From: Clostridia bacterium | Lineage (GTDB): Bacteria; Bacillota; Clostridia; Oscillospirales; CAG-272 | Assembly: GCA_017453205.1 (NCBI GenBank) | Contig: JAFTKO010000017.1 | Span: forward strand, 1 to 51,099 | DNA: 51,099 bases | Direction of reading: 5' to 3' | Shown here: positions 31,389 through 46,821 of the stretch, piece by piece | How positions within the stretch are numbered: position 1 is the first letter of the stretch | Layout of the letters: every line of letters starts with the position of its first letter | The notes under the pieces: generated by a model | What the model was told of the DNA's origin: nothing | The model's input: only the letters and a program-made list of their open reading frames with translations | The model's database searches: none | Position numbers and translations under genes: made by a program

Positions 31389-32375
31389 TTATTTCAAATA
31401 TTTGCTCATTGCCTTGATTACGTTTTGCGCGTACAGGCAAAAGCCGAGATCATTGGGGTGAAGATATTCGTCTCTGAAATATTCGGGAAAGGGAGGAACG
31501 AGGGAAAGACCGTCGATGTGAATCATTCCATGATCTTTTGCCGCGTCGATCACGATCTGCCTTGCCTCGGCAAAGCTACCGATCGGCTTTGGATTTTGTT
31601 TGAGGTCGGCTCTCCAAATGGGAGATATGACAAAAAAGTGCTTTGCTGTGTTTTGATGAAGCGCTTTGACCGCACTGAGAAAGGCGGTGGCGTTTTGTTT
31701 CATATCGTCAAGCGTTTGGTAGTGATTGTAGTCATTGGTGCCAAAGGAGACGACCACGGTGTCGGGCGCATAATCAATTTGATCCACGGTTCTCGGATCA
31801 AAGCGTCCGCCGCCCACACCGAGATTGAGACTTTCGGCGTTGAAAAACTCGGCGACCAAGTGTGCGTAGCAAAAGCTGTGTACCACCGAGCTGCAGCCCT
31901 GTGTGATGGAATCTCCGTAAAACACCATTTTGGAATCGTATTTATGGGGCATCACGTCGGCGCCGTCATCCAATTCAATATATTTGATTACTGCGGGATC
32001 GTTCCCTCGGGGAAAGTAGACGGTCACACGGCATTCGTCAAGCGGGTCGCCAAGCGGATCGTCAAGCTCAATCGTGGCAGGCTCGTTCTTTTTTCTGTAC
32101 TCTTTCATGTTCAGCGTCGCGCGGAGCACACCGTTGATAAAAATGTCGTAGCTTGTGCCGTTGGAGACGGCAAACCTCATGGCCTTGGAGTTTGTGTGAA
32201 AATCGAGGGCGATACCCGAGGAATATCCTGCGCGTTCGCCGAGATCGGGATGCATTTCTTTCCAAGCCGCAATTTGCTTGTCGGTACATCTTTGATAGTG
32301 TACGCCGTCCTCCTCTTCGGTCACAAAAAGCGCGCCGAAAGAGATTGCCTTGATCTGTTCAAAAGAAAGTTGCAT
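31389..32375 (-). CDS. SGNH/GDSL hydrolase with N-terminal beta-domain
   Basis: This 328-residue cytoplasmic protein has an N-terminal beta-sandwich (about 1-145, resembling the SsfX3-type domain) followed by an SGNH hydrolase. Motifs are GDSITQG (Ser156), GVGGG (Gly189), GTND (Asn214) and LHPND (His306), so the catalytic set is complete. It is probably an esterase, for example removing O-acetyl groups from sugars such as sialic acid or xylan fragments. No signal peptide. AAAGGA lies before the start at 32375. Confidence 0.87.
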   Translation of the reverse strand: MQLSFEQIKAISFGALFVTEEEDGVHYQRCTDKQIAAWKEMHPDLGERAGYSSGIALDFHTNSKAMRFAVSNGTSYDIFINGVLRATLNMKEYRKKNEPATIELDDPLGDPLDECRVTVYFPRGNDPAVIKYIELDDGADVMPHKYDSKMVFYGDSITQGCSSVVHSFCYAHLVAEFFNAESLNLGVGGGRFDPRTVDQIDYAPDTVVVSFGTNDYNHYQTLDDMKQNATAFLSAVKALHQNTAKHFFVISPIWRADLKQNPKPIGSFAEARQIVIDAAKDHGMIHIDGLSLVPPFPEYFRDEYLHPNDLGFCLYAQNVIKAMSKYLK

Positions 32376-32533
32376 TTGTCACATTCCTTTTTATGGTTTT
32401 ATTATTGAATGTATTATAACAGAAAAAAGCCCTGTTGTCAAGGCTTTGGAGCTTTGTCATGGGTAACTTTTGGAAAAAACAGCGGTCAAAAAATTGAGCG
32501 TTTGTGTATAAAATGGTTCTTTTGACCTAAACG

Positions 32534-32598
32534 TGTAAAAAAAGTTTCATTTTAAGTAAAAATTGTTTCTTGAAATCTGTCTCGCATTGCTGTATAAT
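32534..32598 (+). promoter_or_regulatory. Promoter with 21-bp tandem WGTAAA operator (site 1)
   Basis: TGTAAA (32534-32539, GTAAA at 32535) and AGTAAA (32555-32560) are exactly 21 bases apart. The second ends 9 bases before TTGAAA (32570-32575), which is 17 bases from TATAAT (32593-32598). The element TTTTA precedes the second repeat as in the other three sites. This site is the most diverged of the four. Confidence 0.7.
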
Positions 32599-32649
32599 AT
32601 AGTACATGTGAGCGAAATTTTTTGATTTGGGAAAGGATCAATGTAGCCA

Positions 32650-33504
32650 ATGAGCATCAACAGTATTTTTATGCGCTTTCCGGGCGGACTTTCCAAAGCC
32701 TTGACGCTGAGCTATGATGATGGTGTGGAGGAGGATGTGCGCCTAATCGAGATTATGAAACAGAATGGCTTGTGCGGAACCTTCAATCTGAACTCCGGCA
32801 GATTGATGACCGCTGAGGAGTACAACAAAACGCCGCGTGATTATGGAAAGCGTTTGGCGCTCAAGCAGGCGGCGGAGCTGTACGGCGTTGACGGCATAGA
32901 GCCCGCGCTCCACACATATTCTCATACACATCTCAACACACTCCCGCCCGCACAGGTGGCATATGAAGTTATGAAGGATCGCGAGCAGTTGGAAACGTTG
33001 TTTGGAAGAGTGATTCGTGGAATGGCGTATCCTTACGGTACCTATTCAGATGAGACGGTAGAGGTGTTGCGTAATTGCGGGATCTTGTATAGTCGCACCG
33101 TGATCTATACCGAGGATTTTAAAATTCCCACCGATTGGTTGCGGTTGCCCGCGACTTGCCATCACAAAAACGCGCACTTGCCCGAGTTGACGCAAAAATT
33201 TATTGAAAAGGTGCACAAGACGAACGAGCAACCGTGGCTGTTCTATCTTTGGGGACACGCGTATGAGTTTGAAAGGGATCATAACTGGGAGGTGATCGAG
33301 CGTTTTGCCGAGCAGATTGGCGGCAGAGAAGATATTTGGTATGCCACCAATGGCGGGATCTTCGAGTATATCGAGGCTTTTCAACACTTAATCTTTACCG
33401 CAGATATGATGCGCGTGCAAAACCCCACGGCAAAGGAGCTTTGGTTCTTTTTGCGTGGGCAGCTCTACAAGATCGCCGCAGGCGAGACGCTGAAATTGGA
33501 TTAA
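32650..33504 (+). CDS. Polysaccharide deacetylase (NodB-type), cytoplasmic
   Basis: This 284-residue protein has the CE4 motifs SYDDG (Asp23, Asp24) and HTYSH (His88, His92) as metal ligands, and the later AYPYGTYSDETV motif. It has no signal peptide, so a small imported sugar rather than wall polymer is the likely substrate; some relatives have no confirmed deacetylase activity. Promoter with tandem 21-bp repeats lies 52-116 bases upstream. A ribosome binding site (GGAAAGGA) is at 32631-32638. Confidence 0.85.
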   Translation: MSINSIFMRFPGGLSKALTLSYDDGVEEDVRLIEIMKQNGLCGTFNLNSGRLMTAEEYNKTPRDYGKRLALKQAAELYGVDGIEPALHTYSHTHLNTLPPAQVAYEVMKDREQLETLFGRVIRGMAYPYGTYSDETVEVLRNCGILYSRTVIYTEDFKIPTDWLRLPATCHHKNAHLPELTQKFIEKVHKTNEQPWLFYLWGHAYEFERDHNWEVIERFAEQIGGREDIWYATNGGIFEYIEAFQHLIFTADMMRVQNPTAKELWFFLRGQLYKIAAGETLKLD

Positions 33505-33542
33505 AAAAGTTGGCTCGCATTTTTTGTGAGCCAACTTTTTTT
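33503..33542. terminator. Bidirectional terminator
   Basis: AAAAAAGTTGGCTC and GAGCCAACTTTTTT arms around GCATTTTTTGT, between the convergent deacetylase and phosphoesterase-like genes. Confidence 0.9.
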
Positions 33543-33544
33543 AA

Positions 33545-34252
33545 TTAAATTTCAATAATTCTAAAATAGTCACTCTCATTTTCACACATAGAGGGGACGG
33601 AGAGATAGCGGATGCCGTCAATCACATTGTCCGCACCCTTTGGGTAATATCCTTGCAATACCAAGCGAATGCGGCCCGATTCACGAATGATCTTTTGTAC
33701 CTCCGCGAAGTTTTGCAGTGTGAATTTTGCGGGGACATTGCAGTCCAAATTTTGACAGATCAACAAAACAGCGTTTTTGGTCATTCTTAACTGCTTTTTC
33801 AGATATTCGATTTGTTGAGACGGGAGGTAAAACTCGGTTTGCTTGCGCGCCGTGTCGGTACCGTATTGCAGATCTGTGCGGTGATTTCCATTCAGTAAAA
33901 GAAACCACGAGTGATCGGTAAACACCGAGTAGGGTGTGGGGTACAGCTCCTCGCGTTCAAGGAGCTCGGCAGCTGTCACGGTGAGGTGATCTTGCGGACC
34001 GGGAACAAGGTAGAACGGGATCTCGTAGCCGCGGATCAGCTCCATTGCTTCATGGATACACTCCAGTACCTCCGGGCGTTTTTGAGAGGTCTGATCCACC
34101 AGGTTTCCCATGCAAAAGCAGAGATCGACGTTCTGTTTTTGAAACGCGATCATTGTTTCTTTCAGCTTTTTCAGCGATGGGAGTGTTTTATGTGTCTGCC
34201 CAATCGGTTTTTGTTTGCAGTAGCGAAGATCTGTAAAAATTCCGATTTTCAT
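33545..34252 (-). CDS. Metallophosphoesterase-fold protein with degenerate active site
   Basis: This 235-residue protein aligns almost without gaps with the 235-residue phosphoesterase at 45922. Metal-site residues are replaced in turn: DAH to DLR (His10 to Arg), MGDL to MGNL (Asp50 to Asn), GNHD to GPQD (Asn to Pro and His to Gln), LLHEN to ICQN (His to Cys), and GHYHKGAD to GYYPKGAD (both His lost). Only the first Asp of the set survives. The fold core (GIRYL, VLQG, KGAD) is preserved, so it is under selection as a protein but cannot bind two metals. It lies 9 bases downstream of an AraC gene on the same strand, so it may be a ligand-sensing partner. A recent pseudogene without stop codons is the alternative. 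Confidence 0.85.
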   Translation of the reverse strand: MKIGIFTDLRYCKQKPIGQTHKTLPSLKKLKETMIAFQKQNVDLCFCMGNLVDQTSQKRPEVLECIHEAMELIRGYEIPFYLVPGPQDHLTVTAAELLEREELYPTPYSVFTDHSWFLLLNGNHRTDLQYGTDTARKQTEFYLPSQQIEYLKKQLRMTKNAVLLICQNLDCNVPAKFTLQNFAEVQKIIRESGRIRLVLQGYYPKGADNVIDGIRYLSVPSMCENESDYFRIIEI

Positions 34253-34261
34253 AATATCCTC

Positions 34262-35104
34262 TCATGTCAGTTTTTTGCGAAATTCCGCAGGCGTACATTG
34301 GTAGTATTTTTTGAAAACCTCGGTGAAATATGTGGGGGAGGAAAAGCCGAGCATGTTGGAGATCTCGGATACATTGAGATCTCGCGTGCCTAAAAACTGA
34401 ATGGCCTTGTTGATGCGGATCTTGGTGAGATATTCGGAAAAATTGTGTCCGGTCAGATCCTTGAACATACGGCTGAAATAAGATTTGTTAAATCCGAGCA
34501 GATCGCTGACCGTTTGTAGGGAAATATTTTGGTTATAGTGGTCATCAAGGTAGTCAAACAACAGCTTCAGTTTTTCAAATTTGGATTCGTCGATGTCGGT
34601 TTCGGGCGAGTTCAACTGATGCTCGCGGTACATGACTCCCAAAATCTTTAAAATGTTGGCTTTTACAAACATTTCATAGTAGGGCTCGGATTTTTTGTAT
34701 TCCGAAAGGATCTCGCTGACGTAGTCGTAAATAATGTGCGATTGAAACAGCGAAATATGCGTGTCCGACATTTTGAGCAATGCCCATGCTGCGGGCATGG
34801 TGCGGAGTAGCTTGCGCGATTCAAAATCGTCAAGCCGAAAATAAACGATGTCTATGGCACCCTCGGGCGGGAGAAACTCGGTGCTGTGCTCGATATGCGC
34901 ATTGACAAACAGACAGTCCCCCTCACTCATGGGGAACTGCTTATGCTCGGCATGATAGATACAAGAACCCTTGCTGCAAATGACCAGCTCGACCTGTGGG
35001 TGAATGTGCGGGGTGGTCGGCTTGTGAAAGTAGGTTGCCTCCACATGTTGGATATTGACGGGCAGATTTTTTACGTTTGGGTTGCGTACGGAGAAAAAGG
35101 ACAT
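34262..35104 (-). CDS. AraC family transcriptional regulator
   Basis: This 280-residue regulator has an N-terminal cupin (PHIHPQVELVICSKGS, then VNAHIEHSTEF) and a C-terminal AraC HTH pair, with SLQTVSDLLGFNKSYFSRMF and the signature FSSPTYFTEVFKKYYQCTPA. Its own promoter on the minus strand (TTGACA/TATAAT, 17-base spacer, at 35154-35182) was identified. It is transcribed with the degenerate phosphoesterase and divergently from the GH2 gene, whose promoter carries tandem 21-bp repeats, making it the best local candidate to bind them. Confidence 0.92.
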   Translation of the reverse strand: MSFFSVRNPNVKNLPVNIQHVEATYFHKPTTPHIHPQVELVICSKGSCIYHAEHKQFPMSEGDCLFVNAHIEHSTEFLPPEGAIDIVYFRLDDFESRKLLRTMPAAWALLKMSDTHISLFQSHIIYDYVSEILSEYKKSEPYYEMFVKANILKILGVMYREHQLNSPETDIDESKFEKLKLLFDYLDDHYNQNISLQTVSDLLGFNKSYFSRMFKDLTGHNFSEYLTKIRINKAIQFLGTRDLNVSEISNMLGFSSPTYFTEVFKKYYQCTPAEFRKKLT

Positions 35105-35153
35105 GTCGCACCTCTGTGATTGAAATAAAGTAAAACAAAAAAACTATGTTAAT

Positions 35154-35182
35154 ATTATAACCTCAAAATCATTGTTTGTCAA
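35154..35182 (-). promoter_or_regulatory. Promoter of the araC-phosphoesterase-like operon
   Basis: On the minus strand TTGACA (35182-35177) and TATAAT (35159-35154) are separated by 17 bases, about 50 bases before the AraC start at 35104. Confidence 0.85.
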
Positions 35183-35296
35183 TAACTATATTAATTTTTT
35201 TGCTTTTTTCTTGAAAAATAAATCATAAAATATAAAAATACTTACATTTTATTTTATTTCTGTTTTTTATAAATATTTTTTAATATAATCAAAAAA

Positions 35297-35361
35297 AGTA
35301 AAAAAAACTTGATTTTATGTAAATATATATAATTGAATCGGAAAATCCGAGATGATATCAT
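35297..35361 (+). promoter_or_regulatory. Promoter with 21-bp tandem WGTAAA operator (site 2)
   Basis: AGTAAA (35297-) and TGTAAATA (35318-35325) are 21 bases apart, with CTTGATTTTA between them. TTGAAT (35333-35338) then follows 15 bases after the second W, and TATCAT (35356-35361) comes 17 bases later. Confidence 0.75.
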
Positions 35362-35442
35362 ATATTTGTGATGGGTTTGGCGGGAGATTTTGACACTTTT
35401 CTCAATGTATCGAAAACATCTGTTTTTTATCGAAAAAATACA

Positions 35443-35471
35443 TTGACATTACAATATTTCTGTGATACAAT
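35443..35471 (+). promoter_or_regulatory. Second promoter of the GH2 gene
   Basis: TTGACA (35443-35448), 17-base spacer, TACAAT (35466-35471), about 75 bases before the start codon; closer to the gene than the operator-bearing promoter. Confidence 0.8.
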
Positions 35472-35548
35472 GAACGTGCAATATCCAAAAAACTTGTTAG
35501 TAAGAGAAAAAATACCTATATATAGGGAAATTAAAGGAGGACTTTTAA

Positions 35549-37261
35549 ATGTACAGACCCGAATATCCGCGCCCGCAAATGGTGCGCACCGATTGGATCA
35601 ACCTCAACGGGACTTGGGAATACCGCGCTGACCGTGCAGGCTCCGGTACCGACCGCAAATTCTTTTTGCCCGAAACCGCATTTGACGAACGCATCGAGGT
35701 GCCGTTTTGCCGCGAGAGTGTGCTCTCCGGTATTGGAGATACCGATTTTTGCGAAACGGTTTGGTATCGCAAAACCCTTTCTTTGCCCCAAGCTTGGGAT
35801 GGAAAGCGCGTGCTTCTCCATATCGGCGCTTGCGATTTTCGCACCACGCTTTGGGTAGACGGCAAGGAGATCGGTACGCACGTGGGCGGATTTGTATCTT
35901 TTTCCTTTGATCTCACCGACCATCTGACCAACCGCCAGCCCGTCATCGTTTTGCGCGTACAGGACGATGTGCGCTCCAAAAAACAAGCCGGCGGAAAGCA
36001 AAGTCACAGCTACTATTCCAAGGGCTGTTCCTATACCCGCACTACAGGCATTTGGCAGACCGTTTGGCTCGAGGCGGTGGAGCAGACCTACATTAAAAAT
36101 ACCAAATACTATCCCGACATTGATGCGGGAACATTGACCGTCCTTGCCAACGCCGAGAACGCAGACGGTATGATGCTGACGGCAAAAGCCTTTTATGAGG
36201 GCAGGGAAGTGGCAAACACCTCCGCTTCGGTGCACGGCAAGCAAGCCATGCTGACGTTGGCTTTGAGTGAACTGCACCTGTGGGAGGTTGGCAACGGCAG
36301 ATTGTACGATCTCGAATTGACGCTTGGAAACGATTGTGTCAAGAGCTATTTCGGTATGCGCAGCATCGGTTGGAAGGATGGCATTTTTACACTGAACGGC
36401 AAGGTCGTGTTCCAAAGATTGGTGTTGGATCAAGGCTTTTATCCCGATGGTATTTGGACTGCGCCGTCCGAGCAAGCCCTCATTGATGATATCATGCGCT
36501 CCATGGCGATGGGCTTTAACGGCGCGCGTCTGCATCAAAAGGTGTTCGAGCCGCTCTTCCTGTATCATTGCGATCGCCTCGGCTATCTTGTATGGGGCGA
36601 GGAAGGAAACTGGGGATTGGACATTAACAGTGTGGAGTGTTGGCGGACCTTTCTTCCCGAGTGGCAGGAGGTGTTGGAGCGCGATTTCAACCATCCCGCC
36701 ATCATCGGTTGGTGTCCGCTCAATGAGACACAGCAAAACCAAGATCCCGCATTTGTCAAATTCCTTGCCGATATGACGCGTTCGGTCGATCCCACGCGCC
36801 TGTACATCGAGGCTTCGGGCTGGCGCCATATTCCGGGGCTTGCAGACATGGTGGATGTACACGACTACTGCCAGGATCCCGCCGCGTTTGCCGCCAAGTA
36901 TGAGCCGCTCAAAAATGAGGAGACCATTGCACTTAATCTGCCCAAGAGCTGGAAATATCAAGAGACTTGTGTCCCCACATTTGTCAGCGAGTATGGCGGC
37001 ATCCATTGGAATGCCGATGACACTGCGGGGGACTCGTGGGGATACGGCTCCACGCCGACAAGCCCCGAGGAGTTCATCAGCCGTTTCAAGGGATTGACCG
37101 AGGCGATCCTGTTCCATCCCAAAATGAGCGGACTTTGCTACACACAGCTTACCGACGTTGAACAGGAGCAAAACGGACTTTACACCTATGACCGCCGCGC
37201 AAAATTCGATCCCGCAATCTTCCACGCAATTCTGACTCAAAAGGCGGCAGTGGAAGAGTGA
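35549..37261 (+). CDS. Glycoside hydrolase family 2 enzyme
   Basis: This 570-residue cytoplasmic enzyme has the GH2 layout: a sugar-binding jelly roll (about 1-175, starting MVRTDWINLNGTWEYR), an Ig-like domain (about 180-275), then a TIM barrel. The acid/base Glu393 (PLNETQ) and the nucleophile Glu481 (VSEYGG) are present. Specificity (beta-galactosidase, glucuronidase or mannosidase) is not fixed by these motifs; its short length points to a reduced GH2. GGAGG lies before the ATG. Two promoters precede it, one with the tandem repeats. Confidence 0.88.
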   Translation: MYRPEYPRPQMVRTDWINLNGTWEYRADRAGSGTDRKFFLPETAFDERIEVPFCRESVLSGIGDTDFCETVWYRKTLSLPQAWDGKRVLLHIGACDFRTTLWVDGKEIGTHVGGFVSFSFDLTDHLTNRQPVIVLRVQDDVRSKKQAGGKQSHSYYSKGCSYTRTTGIWQTVWLEAVEQTYIKNTKYYPDIDAGTLTVLANAENADGMMLTAKAFYEGREVANTSASVHGKQAMLTLALSELHLWEVGNGRLYDLELTLGNDCVKSYFGMRSIGWKDGIFTLNGKVVFQRLVLDQGFYPDGIWTAPSEQALIDDIMRSMAMGFNGARLHQKVFEPLFLYHCDRLGYLVWGEEGNWGLDINSVECWRTFLPEWQEVLERDFNHPAIIGWCPLNETQQNQDPAFVKFLADMTRSVDPTRLYIEASGWRHIPGLADMVDVHDYCQDPAAFAAKYEPLKNEETIALNLPKSWKYQETCVPTFVSEYGGIHWNADDTAGDSWGYGSTPTSPEEFISRFKGLTEAILFHPKMSGLCYTQLTDVEQEQNGLYTYDRRAKFDPAIFHAILTQKAAVEE

Positions 37262-37291
37262 GATTTTTTACAACTTTATATTGATTTTTTC

Positions 37292-37324
37292 AAAAGGAAC
37301 CGTGAACATCGCGGTTCCTTTTTT
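37292..37324 (+). terminator. Terminator after GH2 gene
   Basis: AAAAGGAACCG and CGGTTCCTTTT arms around TGAACATCG, followed by further T residues. Confidence 0.9.
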
Positions 37325-37577
37325 CTGTCAATGTTTTGTAACCCTCGTAGAGGAGGTTTACGAAGCGCCGTGGAGTTTGTAGAGCATGAGCGATGAAAGC
37401 AAAACCGACCGAGCTACGCGAGGGGAGGGGCAAGCATCACAGTCGCCAAGGCGACTTTACAGGATCACGTTTAAAATTTTACTATCTTGCCAACGGAAAG
37501 TTACTACCAAAAATTGTTTATATCCGCCAAAAATCCCGTGTCGATTTTTGCTATAATTGCTAAAGACGCAACAAATG

Positions 37578-37642
37578 AGTAAATAAACCTTGATTTTAAG
37601 TAAATATTTGGGATTGAAAAGTGCAAAATGAAATTATATAAT
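37578..37642 (+). promoter_or_regulatory. Promoter with 21-bp tandem WGTAAA operator (site 3)
   Basis: AGTAAATA occurs at 37578-37585 and again at 37599-37606, identical and exactly 21 bases apart, separated by AACCTTGATTTTA. TTGAAA (37614-37619) and TATAAT (37637-37642) with a 17-base spacer follow at the same distances as in sites 1, 2 and 4. Confidence 0.85.
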
Positions 37643-37703
37643 AAAAGGGCAAGGATCGGATCCACCCTTGAAAAAAATAAATATAATAAGGGGATTTTTA
37701 ATT

Positions 37704-39089
37704 ATGAAAAAAAGCGTACTCAAAATTACGGCGCTTTTCATGAGCTTGCTCATGCTGGTTGGCATGGCAATTATTCCTGTTGGTGCCGAAGATACGACGG
37801 ATACCGCAGTAAATGGTTTGGCGTTAATAGAAAGTTACGGTTTGGAATATGCAGAAACATGGCAAAAGGGCAATGCTGATGCAGGGTACACGCCTGTATC
37901 TGCTGCTACACTGGTTGACGGTTCTGCTAACGGAATGAGCAATTATCTTGTTATCAAATTTGGAACGTCCGATAACTATCCTGTTTTTCAGTTGCCTGCC
38001 TCGGTAACAGCTACAGGATTGACAGATTATACGATTGAAATTGATGTGATTACAACCGAAGGTCAAGCCACTCAAGGTCAGTATCTTTATTTTGCAAAGA
38101 ATGGAAATACAAAAGTTGGATTTTTATATAAGACGGGAAGCTATACTGATGATACGGCAAGAGGTATTATTTCACAAGTTGGTAATAAGCTTAGCTTGAG
38201 TGAAAATTTAATTTTTGGACAGACCCCTTTGGCAAACAGTTCTACTGCTGTGGGTGGGTACCACAGCTTTAAAATTACAGTTTCGTCGGTAACTGATGGT
38301 GCATCTGCCGTAAATGTATCCATTGACGGTGTTGATGTGAGTAGGTACATTACTGCAAGCGCGGCTTTAACATCTTATCTTGGATTTAGTGGTTGGGGTT
38401 TCACCGGTAACTCGACTATCGGCTTTGATAATATTAAAGTAACCGACAATTCTAATGGTACTAATAATGTTGTATATGAAGAAGATTTTGAATCAACAGT
38501 GGTTTCCTATGATGATATTTCTGCTTACAGAAGTGAAAGTGGTTTTGTAGCGCCTACGATTTCTTTGGAAACTGTCAATTCCAGAGGGGGAGGTTATACA
38601 TATACAGGTAGCCCCCAAATCTTCGCCGGCTGGTACACCGACGCGGCTTGCACCACGCCTCTCGCAACCGATGTGACCACGGGTGCGGCATACGCAAAAT
38701 TTGTTCCTGCAGATGTGCTTACCGTACAGGGACAAATTACCGACGGTACGACCTCTGCTAATGCAACCACCGATCTGCGTTTGGTCTCCACGGTAGATTG
38801 CCTTGATTATCAGTATGCGGGCTTCCGTTTGGTTTACAATGAAGCAACGGGCTACAGCGACAATATTACCACCGTTTACAAGACGATTACAGGTGCGGAT
38901 AACACCTATGTACCCACCGTGTTCTCTTCGGCTTCCGAGTATTTTGTACTTTACAACATTACCTCGGTGCCTACCACGGCTACCATTGCCGTTAACGCTT
39001 ACTGGGTGACTGCCGACGGTACCACCGTAAACGGGGAAGCAGTTGCCATCAGCATTGCCGATGCCATTGCGGCAATCGCACAATCATAA
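37704..39089 (+). CDS. Secreted protein with ConA-like domain and C-terminal repeat-family domain
   Basis: This 461-residue protein has a signal peptide ending near IPVGAED. Residues about 25-270 form a concanavalin A-like sandwich, homologous to that of the protein at 39483 (LRVKFG/YP, VGF, FSGWGF, IGFDNI blocks). The C-terminal region (from about 320) carries FAGWYTDAACTTP, then DLRLVSTVDCLDYQYAGFRL, the same domain as at the end of the GLUG protein at 7897. Codon usage shifts from AT-rich to GC-richer near base 38610, suggesting domain shuffling. There is no anchor. ATG 37704 follows AAGGGG; a TTG at 37668 is less likely. Function: probable glycan binding. Confidence 0.8.
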   Translation: MKKSVLKITALFMSLLMLVGMAIIPVGAEDTTDTAVNGLALIESYGLEYAETWQKGNADAGYTPVSAATLVDGSANGMSNYLVIKFGTSDNYPVFQLPASVTATGLTDYTIEIDVITTEGQATQGQYLYFAKNGNTKVGFLYKTGSYTDDTARGIISQVGNKLSLSENLIFGQTPLANSSTAVGGYHSFKITVSSVTDGASAVNVSIDGVDVSRYITASAALTSYLGFSGWGFTGNSTIGFDNIKVTDNSNGTNNVVYEEDFESTVVSYDDISAYRSESGFVAPTISLETVNSRGGGYTYTGSPQIFAGWYTDAACTTPLATDVTTGAAYAKFVPADVLTVQGQITDGTTSANATTDLRLVSTVDCLDYQYAGFRLVYNEATGYSDNITTVYKTITGADNTYVPTVFSSASEYFVLYNITSVPTTATIAVNAYWVTADGTTVNGEAVAISIADAIAAIAQS

Positions 39090-39103
39090 AGGAGGGGAAG
39101 ATC

Positions 39104-39268
39104 ATGTTGAACAAACAGAACCTTTATCAAAATCCCAGCGTTCAAATCGTTCTTTTTGAGAACGAGGATATTCTCACCTTGAGCAACGGCGGGGATGGAT
39201 CGGGTAATTCCAAAGCCTTTAGCGACATCTTCAATTTGACAAACGATGATGTGGTTATTGTTGATTAA
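39104..39268 (+). CDS. Short peptide with EDILT motif (54 aa), function unknown
   Basis: A 54-residue frame with AAAGGAGGGG upstream of the ATG, 14 bases after the secreted protein stop. The motif PSVQIVLFENEDILTLS matches the peptide at 11601. It ends in acidic hydrophobic NDDVVIVD. A strong hairpin (39286-39315) without a T run follows. It is probably co-transcribed with the secreted protein. No function can be assigned. Confidence 0.7.
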   Translation: MLNKQNLYQNPSVQIVLFENEDILTLSNGGDGSGNSKAFSDIFNLTNDDVVIVD

Positions 39269-39285
39269 ATATTGACACAATCGCC

Positions 39286-39315
39286 GTAAGGCTCGCCGGT
39301 TTTCGGCGGGCCTTA
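39286..39315 (+). terminator. Imperfect hairpin after the short peptide gene
   Basis: GTAAGGCTCGCC pairs with GGCGGGCCTTAC across GGTTTTC. No clear T run follows, so it may only slow transcription or stabilise RNA. Confidence 0.5.
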
Positions 39316-39358
39316 CCGTCGTGGTTTACGGGCATACAACTTGCACAAAAAACAAAAA

Positions 39359-39423
39359 TGTAAAGATATCTTGATTATATGTAAAGATATTGAGTTGAAA
39401 ATCTTCCGCAACTATTGTATAAT
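39359..39423 (+). promoter_or_regulatory. Promoter with 21-bp tandem WGTAAA operator (site 4)
   Basis: ATGTAAAGATAT occurs at 39358-39369 and 39379-39390, identical over 12 bases and exactly 21 bases apart. TTGAAA (39395-39400) and TATAAT (39418-39423) follow with a 17-base spacer. This is the best-preserved copy of the shared operator architecture. Confidence 0.85.
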
Positions 39424-39482
39424 AAAATCAGCAAGGGCACATGAACCTTTGTGAATAAAAAACAAAAAGGAGAAGAAAACCC

Positions 39483-40871
39483 ATGAAAACACACGCAATC
39501 AAACTTTTGTCCCTGTTGTTGACCCTTTTGATGTTGCTTTCCGTGTCCGTTGTTGCTATCCAAGCAACGGAGCAAGACAGCGGCACAACAGATGAAGGCA
39601 CGACTGATGATGGTGCGACAACACCCGACAATCATACCCTTACCGGCAATGCGCTCCTCAAGGCTTACGGTATTGTATGCAACAGCAAGGACAACGATGA
39701 CGGTACCAACGGCGACGTTGCTGAAGCAAAGATCACCGGTGCTGACGGAAATGCCTATTTGGAACTCAAATTCGGAGATTCTGCAAGCTATCCCAAAATC
39801 TTTCTTGACGCGACCAACGAAACTGCCGATGCAGGTAATCAGCTGTACAACTACACGGTAAGCATCGATTTTATCGTGGTTGATAACAGCACCAACAAGC
39901 TGATCAACTTCTTCTACGCAAACAACGGCTCTAAGGATGGCACCGTCGGTTTCCGTACCGGTCCGTACACAGAGGACAAAAACTGGGGAATTGTTCAGCT
40001 TGAAAATATGGCATTGCAAACCGCTACCGACAAGATGTATTTCGGAGAGGGTATCTTCTCGGCAAGCAAGACCGAAAAAGGTACTGTACATACATTTGAG
40101 GTCACTGTCAATGCCGAAAAGCTCGGTGCAGTCCCCACCATTTCCGTAACGGTAGACGGTGTTAATGTTGGTGTTACCAATACAGCGGCTTTGGCAACCT
40201 CCCGTATCGGTTTTTCGGGCTACAAGGGCTCTGTGATAGGTATCGATAATATCTGTCTCAAGGACAACACCACCGATACCGTTGTAACCAACATCACCTT
40301 TGAGGATCACTCCTACGGCGATACTCTGCAATCCATCGACGATGACAACCACGGCTTTGCTTGTGTTTGCGGTGTTGCCGTAACCGAGGCACACGCTTAT
40401 GACGCGGGCGTGGAGATCGATGACGAGACCTCCTGCACCACCAAAAAATCCATGAAGTACACCTGCTCCATTTGCCAACATGAAAAGGTTGTTGCCAATC
40501 AACACACCCCCGGCGAGCTTGAAACCGTAAACGATACCTGTACCGAGGACGGTTACACCTCCATCAAGTGCACCGTTTGTAATGAAGAGCTCCAACATAC
40601 CGTGATCGAGAATGACGGACATGATTACGGCCTTTGGGAAAAGACCGACAACGGCAAAAAGCGTACCTGTACCGTTTGCGGTGCCGTAGAAGAGGATGTT
40701 GAGAAGACAGAGGCACCCGAAACCGAGGCTACGCCTGCGGAAAGCCAGACGCAAGCACCCGCTGCCACCGAGGAAAAGAAAGGGTGCGGCGCTGTTGTGG
40801 CAACACCTGCCATCACTGCACTCCTTGTTGGCGGTGCGCTGTTGTTTGCCAAAAAGAAAAAAGAGGATTGA
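39483..40871 (+). CDS. Secreted ConA-like surface protein with cysteine repeats and C-terminal anchor
   Basis: This 462-residue protein has a signal peptide and an N-terminal sandwich domain paralogous to 37704 (LELKFGDSASYPKIFL, RIGFSGYKGSVIGIDNI, NITFEDHSYGDTLQS). From about residue 300 four cysteine-pair modules (CVCG, CSICQ, CTVCN, CTVCG) with HDYG/HAYD spacers resemble repeated zinc-ribbon-like modules common in Clostridia surface proteins. A Thr/Ala/Glu linker, KKGCGAVVAT, a hydrophobic helix and KKKKED finish the chain; no LPXTG. It heads an operon of five genes to 45850 under the site 4 promoter. GGAG precedes the ATG. Confidence 0.85.
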   Translation: MKTHAIKLLSLLLTLLMLLSVSVVAIQATEQDSGTTDEGTTDDGATTPDNHTLTGNALLKAYGIVCNSKDNDDGTNGDVAEAKITGADGNAYLELKFGDSASYPKIFLDATNETADAGNQLYNYTVSIDFIVVDNSTNKLINFFYANNGSKDGTVGFRTGPYTEDKNWGIVQLENMALQTATDKMYFGEGIFSASKTEKGTVHTFEVTVNAEKLGAVPTISVTVDGVNVGVTNTAALATSRIGFSGYKGSVIGIDNICLKDNTTDTVVTNITFEDHSYGDTLQSIDDDNHGFACVCGVAVTEAHAYDAGVEIDDETSCTTKKSMKYTCSICQHEKVVANQHTPGELETVNDTCTEDGYTSIKCTVCNEELQHTVIENDGHDYGLWEKTDNGKKRTCTVCGAVEEDVEKTEAPETEATPAESQTQAPAATEEKKGCGAVVATPAITALLVGGALLFAKKKKED

Positions 40872-40967
40872 TCCCATTCCTCGATGAATGAAAGCTTTCG
40901 AGGAGGACTTTGATAGATGTCGCTGTCCTCCTCGATTTTATCCCAAACATCAAAAAAGGAGATTATC

Positions 40968-42467
40968 ATGAAAAACATATTTGCAAAAATAATATTGCTT
41001 TTGTTGGCGCTCTCCATGCTTTTCGGCTTTGCCGCGTGCAAGAAAGACGATGGAAAAAAGACGCCTACCGATACCCAACCCCCGGAGGAAGAGACCGATC
41101 CCTATCAAAAGGACTCGATCCCCGATAATATCAACTACGGGGAAGAAGAAGTGGTGATCCTGTATGATGAACTGCGTCCCGAAGAGTTTGATCCCGAAGG
41201 CGCTTCCTTTGTGGAAGAGGCGGTCATGTCGAGAAACACCAAGGTCGAGCAGCGTCTCAATGTGACACTTAACTTTACCCCCACCACCGGCGGTTACATC
41301 AATACCGGACTTTCTCCCTTTAAGGCAACCGTGGAAAACGATGTTGTGGGCGGTCTCAATACCTTTGATATTTGCGCAGACTACGGTATGACCATCGGTA
41401 GCTGTGCTGTAAGCGGTCTTTGTGTGAATTTGACCGATTACGATATTATCGATTTCGACGCGCCTTGGTGGGCGTCCGACTTGAGCACCAGTGCCACCAT
41501 CAACAACAAGCTGTATTTTGGTGTCGGTGATATTTCCACCAGCTATCTTTCCAACATGTACTGCATGTTCTTCAATGAGGACTTGGTGAATGACCTCACG
41601 CTTCAAAGTCCGTATGATATGGTGGAAATGGACAACTGGAAGTGGGAGTTCTTTATGCAATATTGCAATGAGATCTATGCCGACCTGGATAATGTGGAGG
41701 GGAAAAGCGTTGGCGACCGCTACGGTCTTACCATGACACATGTCACCGGTGAATCTGTTTTTTACAGCGGCGGATGTCAAATGTTGGAGCTGGACACAGA
41801 CGGAAATTTGATCCTTTCCGAGACGATGAGTAACAGCCGCGCTTCCAATTTCTACTCCTTGACCACCTCTTTCTTCAACGATAGCAACAATGTATATGTA
41901 AACGAAAAAGACGATGATAATGATGGCGTTGTCAACTGGAAAGATAATTTCTTGGACGGAAACAGTGTATTTACCATCTCGCAGCTCAGCTTTGCAAAAG
42001 CAATTATTGACTCGGGCAGCGGTATGAAGTTTGGTGTTCTTCCGCTTCCCAAATACGACGATAACCAAAACTATCGCTCGGCTTGTTGGGTGGGACGTAC
42101 CCTGTATTTCATTTCCTCCGGTTCACCCGTCGCCGAGATGGCGGCAACCACCTTCGAGTGCTTGGCATCCGAGGGCTATCGCCAGGTAACCCCCGTCCTG
42201 TACGAGGATACCTACAAGCTTCGTTACTCCAAGGACGAGACCAGCGGTCAGATGATCGACCTCATCCGTGCCTCCATCGTGTTCGACCTTGCTCAGGTCT
42301 ACACCTATTCCTTTGAGGATCAGATTCCCACCAGAATGACGCGTGCGCTGACATTTGGTACCATTTCCGGCTATGCAACCGAGATGCAGAATATTTCCAC
42401 CGCAATGGCAACCTACAAGAGCGGTATGCAGCAGGTGGTACAGACGATCTACAATTCCTATCAGTGA
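40968..42467 (+). CDS. Extracellular solute-binding lipoprotein
   Basis: This 499-residue protein has a lipobox (GFAAC, Cys24) and the family layout seen at 5824, with FGVLPLPKYDDNQNYRS late in the chain (equivalent to IGYLPLPKLDE). An acidic segment DDDNDGVVNWKD (about residues 328-339) looks like an EF-hand or dockerin-type calcium loop inserted in one lobe. It would deliver a ligand to an ABC importer, but no permease lies nearby. ATG 40968 follows AAAGGAG; an earlier in-frame ATG at 40917 is not preceded by a site. The 96-base gap upstream suggests operon membership. Confidence 0.85.
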   Translation: MKNIFAKIILLLLALSMLFGFAACKKDDGKKTPTDTQPPEEETDPYQKDSIPDNINYGEEEVVILYDELRPEEFDPEGASFVEEAVMSRNTKVEQRLNVTLNFTPTTGGYINTGLSPFKATVENDVVGGLNTFDICADYGMTIGSCAVSGLCVNLTDYDIIDFDAPWWASDLSTSATINNKLYFGVGDISTSYLSNMYCMFFNEDLVNDLTLQSPYDMVEMDNWKWEFFMQYCNEIYADLDNVEGKSVGDRYGLTMTHVTGESVFYSGGCQMLELDTDGNLILSETMSNSRASNFYSLTTSFFNDSNNVYVNEKDDDNDGVVNWKDNFLDGNSVFTISQLSFAKAIIDSGSGMKFGVLPLPKYDDNQNYRSACWVGRTLYFISSGSPVAEMAATTFECLASEGYRQVTPVLYEDTYKLRYSKDETSGQMIDLIRASIVFDLAQVYTYSFEDQIPTRMTRALTFGTISGYATEMQNISTAMATYKSGMQQVVQTIYNSYQ

Positions 42468-42489
42468 TCTCCGATTGAGGATAACAACC

Positions 42490-44283
42490 ATGAAAAAAAC
42501 TTTTCAAGTTTTTGTTTTGTTTCTTGCCGTCGTAGCTGTTTTGACCTCCTGTTTTACGGCTTGCGGCGATAAGGATACCCCCGCCGATGACACAGGCACG
42601 GCGGGGTCTGTGGAGAAAAATGATGACCTTTTGACGCTGATTGAAGGCGGCAATGCAAAATGCACCATTGTGTTCCCGTTTTCCGGTGACCAAAACGCAT
42701 CCTCCGCGGCGTTTGCTCTCAAAAAAACACTAAAACAATTGTACGGCATTGATATTCCGACTGCCGACGATTATGACAACGATACGGCAGTTTCCACCGA
42801 TGACGTGGAGATTTTGGTGGGGACCGTCAAGCGTACCGAGGCGGAAGAGGCTTGTGCGCGCTTGGACGCGGACACCGACTGGCTGGTACATGTAAACGGA
42901 AATAAGCTGGTGATCGTTGCCGCCTCCGCTGAGGGTTACGAGCGCGCACTGGCGTATTTGCAAGCGAATTGCTTAAAGGAAGGGGGAACCGACTTGGCAC
43001 TTTCACGTACACTGTCCGCGGGCAGATTGCTCGCCCAAAATGTACTGTTGCAAAATGTGGTACAATCTTATACCATCGTGTTTGCCGAGGGGGCAACCGA
43101 GCGTGTAAAGACCGCAGCACAAACACTGAAAACCGCGCTTGCACCGTATGGCGACGGCAAAGAGATGACCGTGACCTCCGATGCAACGGCTGCGACCGCC
43201 TACGAGATCCTTGTGGGTGAGACTAACCGTCAGGAATCGAAAACCGGTGTGGAACTGTTCTACTATGATTATTTGATCCGCAAGGAGGGCAATAAAATCG
43301 CCATAAACGCGGGCGGTAGCTTTGCCGTGCAAAACGCGGTGGAGCAATTGGTAAGCCTTTTGGTCCGAGAGGATTTGGAGGACCAGTACATCTACCGTTT
43401 TGATACCTCGCTGTTCAACCCGTTGGCATATGATCAAAGCACGTTTGTACCTGCTTGGCAGGGCAGTATCACGGTTCCCACATGGATGACAAACTTTGAC
43501 GAAAAGCTGTACGCCATCACCAATCCCTCGGGACGTCCGATGTGCGTGGCACACAGAGGTGATGTCATCAACTATCCCGAGGACTCTTTGGAGAGCTTTC
43601 TTTCCGCGGCGTTGCTCGGTGCCGATGTTATTGAGATGGATTTGCAGCTGACCAAGGATAACATCATGGTGCTCTGTCATGACACCACTTTGACCAAAAC
43701 GACCAATGTGGCGTCTCTCAAGGGTAAAAATGGGTTGCCCGACTCGGAAAACATTGTTGACTGGACCTATGCCGAGCTGCAACAGCTTTCACTGTTGGAT
43801 GTGAATGGGAATGTCACTCAATACAAACTGCCAAGCTACTATGAGATCTTGCTGACCTTGCGCGGCAGATGCTTCCTTGCGATCGACCAAAAGGTAAGCA
43901 CCTATCACGCGGAGGATGTGCTTGAAATGGCTACCGAGACCGACGCGGTGGAGCTTTCGTTCTACTCGATGTTTCTTTCCGCGTCCTCGGGACCTGCGCA
44001 AAGCAATTCCTATCAGACAATCATCGATTACAGCAAGGCGCATCCCGAAATGACGCGGCTTTCCGGCTATGCGGCAAAGATGGAGTCCTATATGAAGCTG
44101 AGCGGACACCGGATCCGTTCCCGCGGATGGCTCGGCGGCAAAGCTACTACCGATCCCTCCGGCGAAAATCACGAGATCTATCAGAGCAAATATGAGGGAG
44201 GATTAAGGTTGATCTACACCAATAATATCCCTCTGATGTCAACCTTTATTGCAAAATACCAACCCGACTTAACACAATCATAA
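42490..44283 (+). CDS. Lipoprotein glycerophosphodiester phosphodiesterase
   Basis: This 597-residue protein has a lipobox (LTSC, Cys21). Two alpha/beta domains of the GH20b-like type follow (about 45-165 and 190-295, each ending in a hydrophobic strand such as NKLVIVAASA or NKIAINAGGS). The GDPD barrel spans about 345-597, with His355-Arg356 (VAHRGD), Glu382 and Asp384 (VIEMDL) and His397 (LCHDTT). The catalytic set is complete, so it should release glycerol 3-phosphate from glycerophosphodiesters outside the cell. Start chosen at 42490 to give the lipoprotein signal. It follows the solute-binding gene by 22 bases. Confidence 0.9.
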   Translation: MKKTFQVFVLFLAVVAVLTSCFTACGDKDTPADDTGTAGSVEKNDDLLTLIEGGNAKCTIVFPFSGDQNASSAAFALKKTLKQLYGIDIPTADDYDNDTAVSTDDVEILVGTVKRTEAEEACARLDADTDWLVHVNGNKLVIVAASAEGYERALAYLQANCLKEGGTDLALSRTLSAGRLLAQNVLLQNVVQSYTIVFAEGATERVKTAAQTLKTALAPYGDGKEMTVTSDATAATAYEILVGETNRQESKTGVELFYYDYLIRKEGNKIAINAGGSFAVQNAVEQLVSLLVREDLEDQYIYRFDTSLFNPLAYDQSTFVPAWQGSITVPTWMTNFDEKLYAITNPSGRPMCVAHRGDVINYPEDSLESFLSAALLGADVIEMDLQLTKDNIMVLCHDTTLTKTTNVASLKGKNGLPDSENIVDWTYAELQQLSLLDVNGNVTQYKLPSYYEILLTLRGRCFLAIDQKVSTYHAEDVLEMATETDAVELSFYSMFLSASSGPAQSNSYQTIIDYSKAHPEMTRLSGYAAKMESYMKLSGHRIRSRGWLGGKATTDPSGENHEIYQSKYEGGLRLIYTNNIPLMSTFIAKYQPDLTQS

Positions 44284-44299
44284 AGAAACCGGAATAATT

Positions 44300-45139
44300 A
44301 TGGAAAATTTTAATTTACAAGAACTTGCTAAAAAACAAATCATTATCTGTGCACACCGCGGTGTCTGGGGCGGAAACATTCCCTGTAATACCGCAACCTC
44401 CTATGACATTGCAATCAGCCATGGTGCTGATATGATTGAGCTGGACGTGACTGCCAGCGTCGACGGGGAGCTGTTTGTGTTCCACCCGGGACAGGAGGCA
44501 AGACAGCTGAATCTTAGGGATACGGACATTCGCAAGATGCCTGCCGAGGAGGTAAAAAAGCTGCGTTACGCCAACCTTGACGGCAATGCCACCGTCGAAC
44601 CCATCTACCTTTTGGATGATATGTTCGAGCACCTCAAGGGCAAATGCTACATCAATGTCGATAAATTCGGCGACAATCCCGCAAAGATCATCGAAAAGAT
44701 CAAGGCGCATAACATTGCCGAGCAGATCGTGGTAAAATCTGACGTCAAACCCGAAATTTTGGACATTGTGGAGGAATATGCCCCCGATCTGCAGTATCTC
44801 GGTATCATCTCCAAAGCTCCCGAGTCACACGAAATGCTGATGAAACGCAAGCTGAATTACGTGGGACTGGAAGTGGTATTTGCCGACGATGATTCTCCGC
44901 TGGTTTCCGAGGAGTTCCGTAATAAGCTCCACGCCGACGGCAAGCTTTTGTGGGGCAACGGGATCCTGTTCAACTACAAACGCAAGCTGGCGGGGGTTCA
45001 CTCCGATGATACGGCACTGCGGGGTGATCCCGACCTTGGTTGGGGCTACTTTGCGAAAAACGGCTTTGATATCATTCAAACCGACTGGCCTTTGGCGCTG
45101 TCGCTGTATTTGGAAAAGACGGGTCAGCGCTACCGTTGA
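44300..45139 (+). CDS. Cytoplasmic glycerophosphodiester phosphodiesterase
   Basis: This 279-residue barrel has His19-Arg20 (CAHRGV), Glu47 and Asp49 (MIELDV) and His62 (FVFHPG). Like the lipoprotein upstream it is a GDPD, but has no signal, so it acts inside. It starts 16 bases after the lipoprotein gene. The lower basic motif FHPG instead of CHD suggests a different subfamily and substrate from the lipoprotein. The pair fits external and internal steps of a phosphodiester pathway. Confidence 0.9.
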   Translation: MENFNLQELAKKQIIICAHRGVWGGNIPCNTATSYDIAISHGADMIELDVTASVDGELFVFHPGQEARQLNLRDTDIRKMPAEEVKKLRYANLDGNATVEPIYLLDDMFEHLKGKCYINVDKFGDNPAKIIEKIKAHNIAEQIVVKSDVKPEILDIVEEYAPDLQYLGIISKAPESHEMLMKRKLNYVGLEVVFADDDSPLVSEEFRNKLHADGKLLWGNGILFNYKRKLAGVHSDDTALRGDPDLGWGYFAKNGFDIIQTDWPLALSLYLEKTGQRYR

Positions 45140-45151
45140 TTTGTTGACGGT

Positions 45152-45850
45152 ATGAAGAATTTTTCTGTGTCAATTGCTTCCTACAACATCAAGCACGGTG
45201 CCGATGTCGGCTTCGACATGGCACCGTTTGCCCAAAATATTCTTGATCAGAGCATTGATGTCGTGGGTGTTCAAGAGGTTGACAAAAACGCTTCACGTTC
45301 TCAAAAAATCGATACGATGCGGTTGCTTTCCCTGCACACGGGATACCCCAATTACCGCTTTTTCAAGACGATCCCGCTCGGTGACGAGGGAGAGTACGGA
45401 CTTGGTATTTTGAGCAAATATCCGATTTTGGAGAGTGAGCTGATCCCATTGGACTCTGCGGGAGCAAAAGAACAAAGAGTATTGGGACGGGCTTTGATAG
45501 ACGTCGATGGCATTCATATCAATTTCTTTGTCACACATCTTTCCCATGATTCGGATACGACCAGAGCACGGCAGTTTGATCAGATTGCGGCAATTTTGAA
45601 AAGCTACGGCGATTTTGTTCTTACGGGCGATTTTAATACCTCGAATTTTGACGAATATGCCGTGATCGAATATGCAGGAGCGGTCAACAATGCAAGCCAC
45701 AGTGTTGCAACTTTTCCAAAAACAAACGCATCGATCGATAACATCGTTTACTCTGCGGAGACGTGGGAGTTTTCCGCCCCTCGAATTTTGACCGCAAGCC
45801 ACTCCGACCATTATATGCTTTACGCAACGGGAAACTTTTTGAAAAGGTAA
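45152..45850 (+). CDS. Endonuclease/exonuclease/phosphatase (EEP) family phosphodiesterase
   Basis: This 232-residue protein has the full EEP metal site: SYNIKHG (Asn), QEVDK (Glu), THLSHD (His), TGDFN, SIDNI and SHSDH. Relatives include sphingomyelinases, inositol-phosphate phosphatases and nucleases. It has no signal peptide. It starts 12 bases after the second GDPD, and so may act on a glycerophospho-inositol or similar phosphate ester in the same pathway. It is the last gene before a strong bidirectional terminator. Confidence 0.88.
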   Translation: MKNFSVSIASYNIKHGADVGFDMAPFAQNILDQSIDVVGVQEVDKNASRSQKIDTMRLLSLHTGYPNYRFFKTIPLGDEGEYGLGILSKYPILESELIPLDSAGAKEQRVLGRALIDVDGIHINFFVTHLSHDSDTTRARQFDQIAAILKSYGDFVLTGDFNTSNFDEYAVIEYAGAVNNASHSVATFPKTNASIDNIVYSAETWEFSAPRILTASHSDHYMLYATGNFLKR

Positions 45851-45921: not shown

Positions 45922-46629
45922 TTAAACATCAAGTATGAGATAGTGATTGTCCTCCCCCTCGCACATGGCGGGAAGGGTAAGGTAGCGGATGCCGTTGATC
46001 AGTCTGTCGGCACCCTTGTGGTAATGTCCTTGCAAGACCAGTGATACTTTTCCGCTGTTTTCAATGATACTGCGCGCATCCGCGGCGTTTTTTACCACAT
46101 GATTGATCTGCACCGCGTCATCAAGATTTTCGTGGAGCAGAACGATACAGGGTTTGGTTGCCGCAGCAAGGGTGTATTTGAGAAATGTCAGCTGTTCCGG
46201 CGGGAGGTTGGAGTCTTTCCATTCCACGCCCGCTACATCAAAGCGACGGTAGTCCTCGCGGTAATTGGCGTCCAAAAAGACCAACAAATGTGACGCGGTG
46301 TTGAGGACATACGGCGGGGTGTGACACTCCGTGCGTGTCGAAAACTCCTCGGCGCTGAAAGCGGCATAGTCGTGGTTCCCCGGGAGGATGTAATAGGGAA
46401 TGCCGTAGGAACGGATCACCTCCATGACCTCGGTCAGACATTGCACAGGTTCTTCGAGAGTTTCGCCTTTGTCTATCAAGTCACCCATGCAGATAACGAG
46501 CTCGACCTGTGCATCGGAAAACGCGTTCATTGCCTCTTTGATCTTTGAAAGCGAAAGCGACGGGCGGCGTGTGCGGCAAAGCACCTCGGCTTTACAGTAA
46601 TGTGCATCCGCAAATATTCCAAGCTTCAT
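45922..46629 (-). CDS. Calcineurin-like metallophosphoesterase (active-site intact)
   Basis: This 235-residue cytoplasmic protein has FADAHY (Asp8, His10), CMGDL (Asp50), PGNHD (Asn85, His86), LLHEN and GHYHKGAD, a complete metal-binding set. It is the intact paralogue of the degenerate protein at 33545; the two align over the whole length. ATG 46629 was chosen because GGAGG lies upstream on the minus strand; the frame extends to 46695 but lacks a site. A minus-strand promoter (TTTACA-17-TATAAT near 46720-46750) sits between it and the AraC gene at 46822. It probably cleaves a phosphoester in the same pathway as the neighbouring GDPD and EEP enzymes. Confidence 0.88.
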   Translation of the reverse strand: MKLGIFADAHYCKAEVLCRTRRPSLSLSKIKEAMNAFSDAQVELVICMGDLIDKGETLEEPVQCLTEVMEVIRSYGIPYYILPGNHDYAAFSAEEFSTRTECHTPPYVLNTASHLLVFLDANYREDYRRFDVAGVEWKDSNLPPEQLTFLKYTLAAATKPCIVLLHENLDDAVQINHVVKNAADARSIIENSGKVSLVLQGHYHKGADRLINGIRYLTLPAMCEGEDNHYLILDV

Positions 46630-46821
46630 AATCGTTTCCTCCAAACGGCGCATATGCACACGTTTGAGTGGCGTGTGCTGTTGATATTGAAACATGATTT
46701 GTTTTTTATAATTATATCATGTTCTGCTCGAAATGTAAATGCTTTATTTGGTCCAAAATTTGGATTTTTTTGTCTTGGCTTTTTGCACGCTTTTTTAAGA
46801 ACCTCAAAAGGAGAAGATTCC

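Follow-up and report, generated by a model that had tools for sequence, protein, structure and literature searches.

Four promoters in a 51,099-nucleotide stretch of DNA from a Clostridia bacterium (contig JAFTKO010000017.1; the whole stretch is hereafter called the window) share an upstream element composed of two direct repeats. This element is probably the operator of one activator of the AraC family, most likely the protein encoded in the same gene cluster at 34262–35104 (P0001). Site 1 (32534..32560, + strand) carries TGTAAA at 32534 and AGTAAA at 32555, upstream of a polysaccharide deacetylase gene, and is followed by promoter 1 (32570..32598, +; TTGAAA-17-TATAAT). Site 2 (35297..35323, +), with AGTAAA at 35297 and TGTAAA at 35318, lies between araC and a GH2 gene, whose distal promoter is promoter 2 (35333..35361, +; TTGAAT-17-TATCAT). 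Two copies of AGTAAA, at 37578 and 37599, form site 3 (37578..37604, +), which precedes promoter 3 (37614..37642, +; TTGAAA-17-TATAAT) and the genes for a probably secreted protein and a small peptide. Site 4 (39359..39385, +), upstream of promoter 4 (39395..39423, +; TTGAAA-17-TATAAT) and a five-gene operon, contains two copies of TGTAAAGATAT at 39359 and 39380. Read directly in the sequence, WGTAAAnA is thus present in 8/8 repeat copies, the repeats are 21 bp apart at every site, the second W stands 15 bp before the −35 box in 4/4 (box starts 32570, 35333, 37614 and 39395) and the promoter spacer measures 17 bp in 4/4. The original prediction, made from the sequence alone, had described the four sites in just these terms and is confirmed on each count; its further claim that CTTGATTTTA lies between the repeats of sites 2–4 fails at site 4, which reads CTTGATTATA instead. 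Two direct half-sites about 21 bp apart, the proximal one abutting or overlapping the −35 box, are the layout of a class II AraC-type operator, and all four sites display it. The A-like box WGTAAA occurs in both halves; the TTGATTTTA of the distal half is not repeated at the corresponding position of the proximal one.

In the sequence searched, the element is exclusive to this cluster. A genome-wide search, which the original prediction had proposed as a check, returned for GTAAA-N16-GTAAA-N9-TTGA four perfect matches in the 2,288,399 bases of the own genome (73% complete), namely the four sites, as against 0 for the reversed control pattern. Allowing one mismatch gave two additional matches, and two with the control as well. 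The shorter core TTGATTTTAWGTAAANAT, sought without a promoter at up to two mismatches, was found at the four sites and at one other place (control, 2). This last match, on contig C25, was rejected: it falls within another gene's leader on the opposite strand, and the control has two matches at two mismatches. When 395 genomes of the family were searched with the full pattern, 10 others had one match each, and none was found in the 20 other congeners among them; the reversed control matches 16. These 10 matches look like chance. Within the window alone, the count at three mismatches was modestly above chance (12 against a mean of 5.4, with 2 of 100 shuffles reaching 12).

A leave-one-out test gave the same picture. 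A profile of the 42 bases preceding the −35 box (−42..−1) was built from three sites and the fourth was scored with it, the search space being 965,044 positions on both strands of the window and of 45 stretches of the own genome. Each site was recovered by the profile of the other three: the four sites are the only 4 of the 965,044 positions to score that high, and the 470 promoter calls beyond them all stay below their score. Pairwise identity between sites is likewise highest in −42..−1 (26–32/42), compared with 13–20/42 further upstream, 1–8/17 in the spacer and 7–11/32 downstream of the −10 box, except for sites 3 and 4, which share 17/32 there. Because the sites recover one another and their likeness is concentrated in this segment, the 42 bases before the −35 box look as if they were held by selection, as expected of an operator.

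Since P0001 has no close relatives that would allow footprinting by orthology, the neighbourhoods of AraC genes in general were used. In the own genome, 39 proteins account for 40 HTH_18 matches; three of these proteins are probably assembly duplicates. Contigs C29 and C37 of this genome (G000) bear three AraC matches of equal score at mirrored positions, which looks like a duplicated assembly stretch; the three on C37 were left out, and 33 stretches together with the window cover the remaining matches. The sample further comprised 12 control stretches of the own genome and, from two of the four congeners searched for AraC matches, 25 (G028) and 28 (G382) AraC-gene stretches with 12 controls. 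Gene calls relied on codon usage and calls of sigma-A-like promoters on hexamer matches, overlapping promoter calls being merged in all sets. Promoters with a short intergenic upstream region were excluded (<45 bases for repeat and target counts, <60 for the lag profile and <43 for element comparisons). Three stretches in which no AraC gene was called (L063, L104 and L127) were kept in the promoter counts, as was, among the controls, one of the 24 control stretches that has AraC-like matches (L154, G028) and shows no repeat match. A promoter was scored as repeat-bearing if the 12 bases starting 20 to 9 before the −35 box agreed at ≥9/12 positions with the 12 bases d upstream, d ranging from 13 to 33; the threshold was fixed on the own genome and then kept for the two congeners.

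At d = 21, repeats were found in 16/113 AraC-adjacent promoters of the own genome (other spacings: mean 1.65, maximum 4; controls 0/62), in 8/64 of G028 (mean 0.80, maximum 4; controls 0/38) and in 10/86 of G382 (mean 1.65, maximum 4; controls 0/26). Without the regions of the four sites, 13/105 own-genome promoters still show them. Pooled over the three genomes, 34/263 promoters bear such repeats, whereas 200 shuffles give a mean of 2.53 and never exceed 7; d = 20 comes second with 10, and the controls yield 0/126 (shuffle mean 0.79; AraC-adjacent versus control, Fisher p 1e-6). The layout is therefore associated with AraC genes rather than with promoters generally, although an unanchored count, discussed below, is less clean. 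Base identity at lag 21, profiled over 231 AraC-neighbour promoters from which the five promoters of the four target regions had been left out, is elevated throughout −17..−1 (z 1.2 to 4.0), the length of one AraC half-site. Lags 20 and 22 are elevated in patches only, and the 119 control promoters reach at most z 2.0 in this segment. The repeats occur at 19/74 promoters divergent from araC, at 4/82 of araC itself and at 11/107 of other neighbours; such a preference for the divergent gene is what local activators of neighbouring genes would give. Two related AraC genes, L110 (G028) and L139 (G382), have divergent promoters with 20-bp repeats of TCGCAA-like words, hinting at a 20-bp subclass.

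If these elements are operators, their wording might be expected to follow the DNA-binding domain of the adjacent regulator. A called promoter on a divergent partner gene was available for 57 of the 96 AraC genes called; for every gene pair the best promoter pair was used, a choice that inflates all identities. In the 11 pairs with a domain score ≥200, a mean of 21 to 23 of 42 bases is shared at fixed register, as against 14.5 in 1,189 pairs scoring <120. At least 20/42 are shared in 8 of the 11, and at least 24/42 in 3/11 compared with 13/1,555 pairs scoring <160. Identity in the close pairs amounts to 0.52 in the element, 0.40 in the spacer and 0.23 downstream, whereas distant pairs picked likewise reach 0.35 in the element. 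The clearest cases are L055/L128 (31/42, with GTTACA words), L119/L081 (29/42, GTCGAAAA) and L117/L077 (27/42). Four of the 11 pairs involve the AraC protein at 46822 (AraC2) or its relatives and several share a member, so that these are not 11 independent tests. Similar DNA-binding domains hence tend to go with similar elements at fixed register. Both this tendency and the enrichment beside AraC genes support the class II AraC reading advanced in the original prediction. For P0001 itself, likeness of the DNA-binding domain in 55 other AraC proteins weakly tracks likeness of their elements to those of the four promoters (rho 0.30, p 0.027), the corresponding rho for AraC2 being 0.05.

P0001 (34262..35104, − strand) belongs to the AraC/XylS family by both of its domains. 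It has a C-terminal double helix-turn-helix (HTH_18, PF12833, 6.6e-21; HTH_AraC, PF00165, 8.7e-19 in two stretches) and an N-terminal cupin-type ligand and dimer domain (AraC_binding, PF02311, 1.1e-9). Its promoter (35154..35182, −; TTGACA-17-TATAAT) matches the consensus at 12/12 bases, with no WGTAAA repeat before it. The chief competing explanation is that AraC2, or another AraC protein of the genome, binds the four sites. The 39 AraC proteins in a genome that is 73% complete leave many candidates, and the AraC2 gene lies just past the operon of site 4. However, the phosphoesterase gene divergent from AraC2 is preceded by a different element. This element is unlike WGTAAA, scores −9.6 on the four-site profile (the four sites score 43.4 to 49.9) and resembles those of the two nearest relatives of AraC2 in the set, L079 (21/42) and L109 (23/42), but not that of L053 (17). 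The four sites therefore do not share the element expected of an AraC2 regulon. Moreover, the four-site word is nowhere near the other AraC genes examined, and the P0001 gene sits within the cluster, divergent from site 2. We consider it unlikely, on these grounds, that a regulator other than P0001 is responsible. P0001 is the best candidate because AraC2 has a different element, and the choice of the AraC at 34262 over that at 46822, which the original prediction had favoured as the natural one, is supported, although this falls short of proof.

How P0001 would act can be outlined from the layout. A P0001 dimer would occupy the two half-sites, which face the same side of the DNA at a distance of two helical turns, and the proximal subunit, its half-site abutting the −35 box, could contact RNA polymerase. 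With ligand present, transcription of the local carbohydrate- and phosphodiester-processing cluster would rise. The ligand would be released from the substrate of the cluster, presumably a phosphodiester-bearing glycan or glycolipid. Alternatively, an AraC-family protein may bind the four promoters and mainly repress them. This would be consistent with the near-consensus hexamers of promoters 1, 3 and 4 (TTGAAA, TATAAT), which might function unaided, and with the −35 match of repeat-bearing promoters being but slightly weaker (mean 4.32/6) than that of other AraC-neighbour promoters (4.53) and controls (4.75). Yet the proximal half-site abuts the promoter and does not cover it, as in known activators such as MtlR, whose site lies directly upstream of −35 (PMC4514859). 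Repression thus seems improbable, and P0001 more plausibly binds and activates at the four promoters.

Another possibility is that no dedicated regulator is involved and that RNA polymerase itself recognises the repeats as an A-tract element upstream of the promoter. They are AT-rich, phased by two helical turns and placed beside the −35 box. But the genome contains the full pattern at these four sites alone, none of the 126 control promoters has 21-bp repeats abutting −35, and the repeat words vary by locus, which makes this explanation very improbable. It is scarcely credible that one promoter was recently copied to give all four: although targets 3 and 4 start with paralogous genes and sites 3 and 4 agree at the 17/32 downstream bases, targets 1 and 2 are unrelated genes, and, for most pairs, likeness outside −42..−1 and the hexamers is near chance. 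As it mostly ends at the −35 box, the promoters can hardly be recent copies of one another.

Several observations weigh against operators of P0001, or against the generality of the layout. A search of 34 congeners at E≤1e-30 gave no P0001 orthologue. In 394 other genomes of the family, with at most six candidates scored per genome, just two relatives (29 and 33% identity) passed E≤1e-40. The pairing of P0001 with the element therefore cannot be confirmed by descent. The collection of genome contigs, from which own-genome records may be missing, likewise gave no relatives of P0001 or of the solute-binding protein of the cluster. The correlation of rho 0.30 for P0001 is weak. The near-consensus hexamers of three promoters have been mentioned, and the proximal half lacks an in-register counterpart of the distal CTTGATTTTA. 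Site 2 itself reaches only 8/12 at lag 21, below threshold, and so is not among the 34, and the element of AraC2 also stands at 8/12. In three of the 11 close pairs, few bases are common to the two elements (11, 16 and 17 of 42). Identity further upstream, measurable in four close pairs, is 0.38, two of them being about as alike there as in the element. Finally, in an unanchored count of intergenic repeats, spacing 21 was the commonest in own-genome controls too (7 versus 13). The 21-bp layout is thus not wholly confined to AraC neighbourhoods, and for this reason the unanchored count was dropped as the main test.

The genes downstream of the four sites are all on the + strand. Target 1 (32650..33504) encodes a polysaccharide deacetylase (PF01522, 2.6e-17) and target 2 (35549..37261) a GH2 glycosidase resembling beta-glucuronidases and beta-galactosidases (PF02837, PF02836; NCBIfam matches all below cut-offs). 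Target 3 (37704..39089) is probably a secreted protein, with a signal-like start by eye and no known domain, and is a paralogue of the product of 39483–40871 (32% identity over 244 amino acids). Downstream of it, 39104..39268 encodes an acidic peptide of 54 amino acids that matches no family in Pfam or NCBIfam. The operon of target 4 opens with the aforementioned paralogue (39483..40871; P0005), also probably secreted, whose end resembles an LPXTG anchor below threshold. It continues with a solute-binding-protein-like product (40917..42467, start possibly 41016; PF13416, 24.0 bits against a cut-off of 27), a GDPD-domain protein (42355..44283, start probably near 42490; PF03009, 1.8e-21), a GDPD protein with DUF4996 assigned by domain match (44300..45139) and an endonuclease/exonuclease/phosphatase-family (EEP) enzyme (45152..45850; PF03372, 2.6e-17). 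A search with P0005 at E≤1e-15 found nothing in 34 congeners and, in the own genome, matched its paralogue alone, so that this part of the cluster, at least, is accessory. Rfam gave no match at gathering scores in 32300–39700.

The layout is familiar from other bacteria. In Escherichia coli, the AraC half-sites araI1 and araI2 are 17 bp long, stand at 21-bp spacing and overlap the −35 box, and there is also a looping site, araO2. The two proximal half-sites are alike to ours in arrangement, the stronger being distal, and binding at araI2 recruits polymerase (PMC4760080). XylS at Pm likewise recognizes a pair of 15-bp direct repeats that both contain an A box and a B box, although its box words are TGCA and GGTA and at our four sites only the A-like box is clearly repeated (PMC5481539). 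MtlR, an activator at PmtlE of Pseudomonas fluorescens, binds upstream of −35, over at least 37 bp, where two 15-bp direct-repeat blocks lie (−72..−58 and −50..−36); it differs in its mannitol promoter and in the 22-bp spacing that these coordinates give (PMC4514859). AraC-family rhamnose regulators of Bacillales, Bacteroides and Enterococcus have the 21-bp direct-repeat layout with private words (PMC3870299); their targets are rhamnose genes. For 16 Bacteroides hybrid two-component system (HTCS) regulators with an AraC-type DNA-binding domain, direct repeats averaging 21 bp apart were predicted and interpreted as the sites of dimers that bind a single DNA face at a two-turn distance (PMC3878776). 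Many paralogues per genome and repeats of about 21 bp are common to both cases, but the HTCS proteins are hybrid two-component regulators with a periplasmic sensor, whereas P0001 is a one-component protein with a cupin-type AraC_binding domain. An AraC-annotated factor of Clostridium thermocellum, for which DNA affinity purification sequencing (DAP-seq) gave a repeat-free motif, was set aside, being described as having no discernible DNA-binding domain (PMC8457756). The four-promoter element is, accordingly, a new example of an already published 21-bp AraC layout.

The GH2 gene has a second, proximal promoter (35408..35471, +), in which two copies of TATCGAAAA (35408 and 35428) lie 20 bp apart, the second starting 15 bp before the −35 box of TTGACA-17-TACAAT at 35443. 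This arrangement occurs nowhere else in the genome searched at up to three mismatches, and suggests a second AraC-type input. It is possible, and we put it forward tentatively, that many AraC operators in the genus can be read from the 42 bp that precede the −35 box of the gene divergent from the regulator, and that the GH2 region is a two-input gate, with the WGTAAA 21-bp repeat as distal and the TATCGAAAA 20-bp repeat as proximal input. A paper on a clostridial AraC-type regulator states that a consensus site for the family could not be identified (PMC3572039); here, words differ between loci, and it is the layout that recurs. Reading AraC operators at fixed register was not recognised among literature titles, the coverage of which was partial. 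Five genomes of the genus have at least 31 to 61 AraC helix-turn-helix matches each. With a fixed register, a candidate site would be readable from sequence alone and could be linked to the adjacent regulator, so that large sets of regulator–operator pairs might be collected and the AraC recognition code tested, and perhaps solved, at scale.

The gene at 33545–34252 (− strand), beside araC, encodes a metallophosphoesterase-like protein that is 39% identical to the intact product of 45922–46695, the phosphoesterase gene divergent from AraC2. No Pfam metallophosphatase match was obtained for it at E≤1, and its one NCBIfam phosphodiesterase match is far below cut-off; a one-sequence search of the called genes of the window and AraC stretches of the three genomes gave no other relative at E≤1e-3. 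Since it lies nine bases downstream of araC, it is probably co-transcribed with the regulator gene. Compared with the intact copy, its metal-binding motifs are replaced, GDLID by GNLVD, GNHD by GPQD and GHYH by GYYP. The protein looks like a pseudoenzyme that could sense a phosphorylated ligand.

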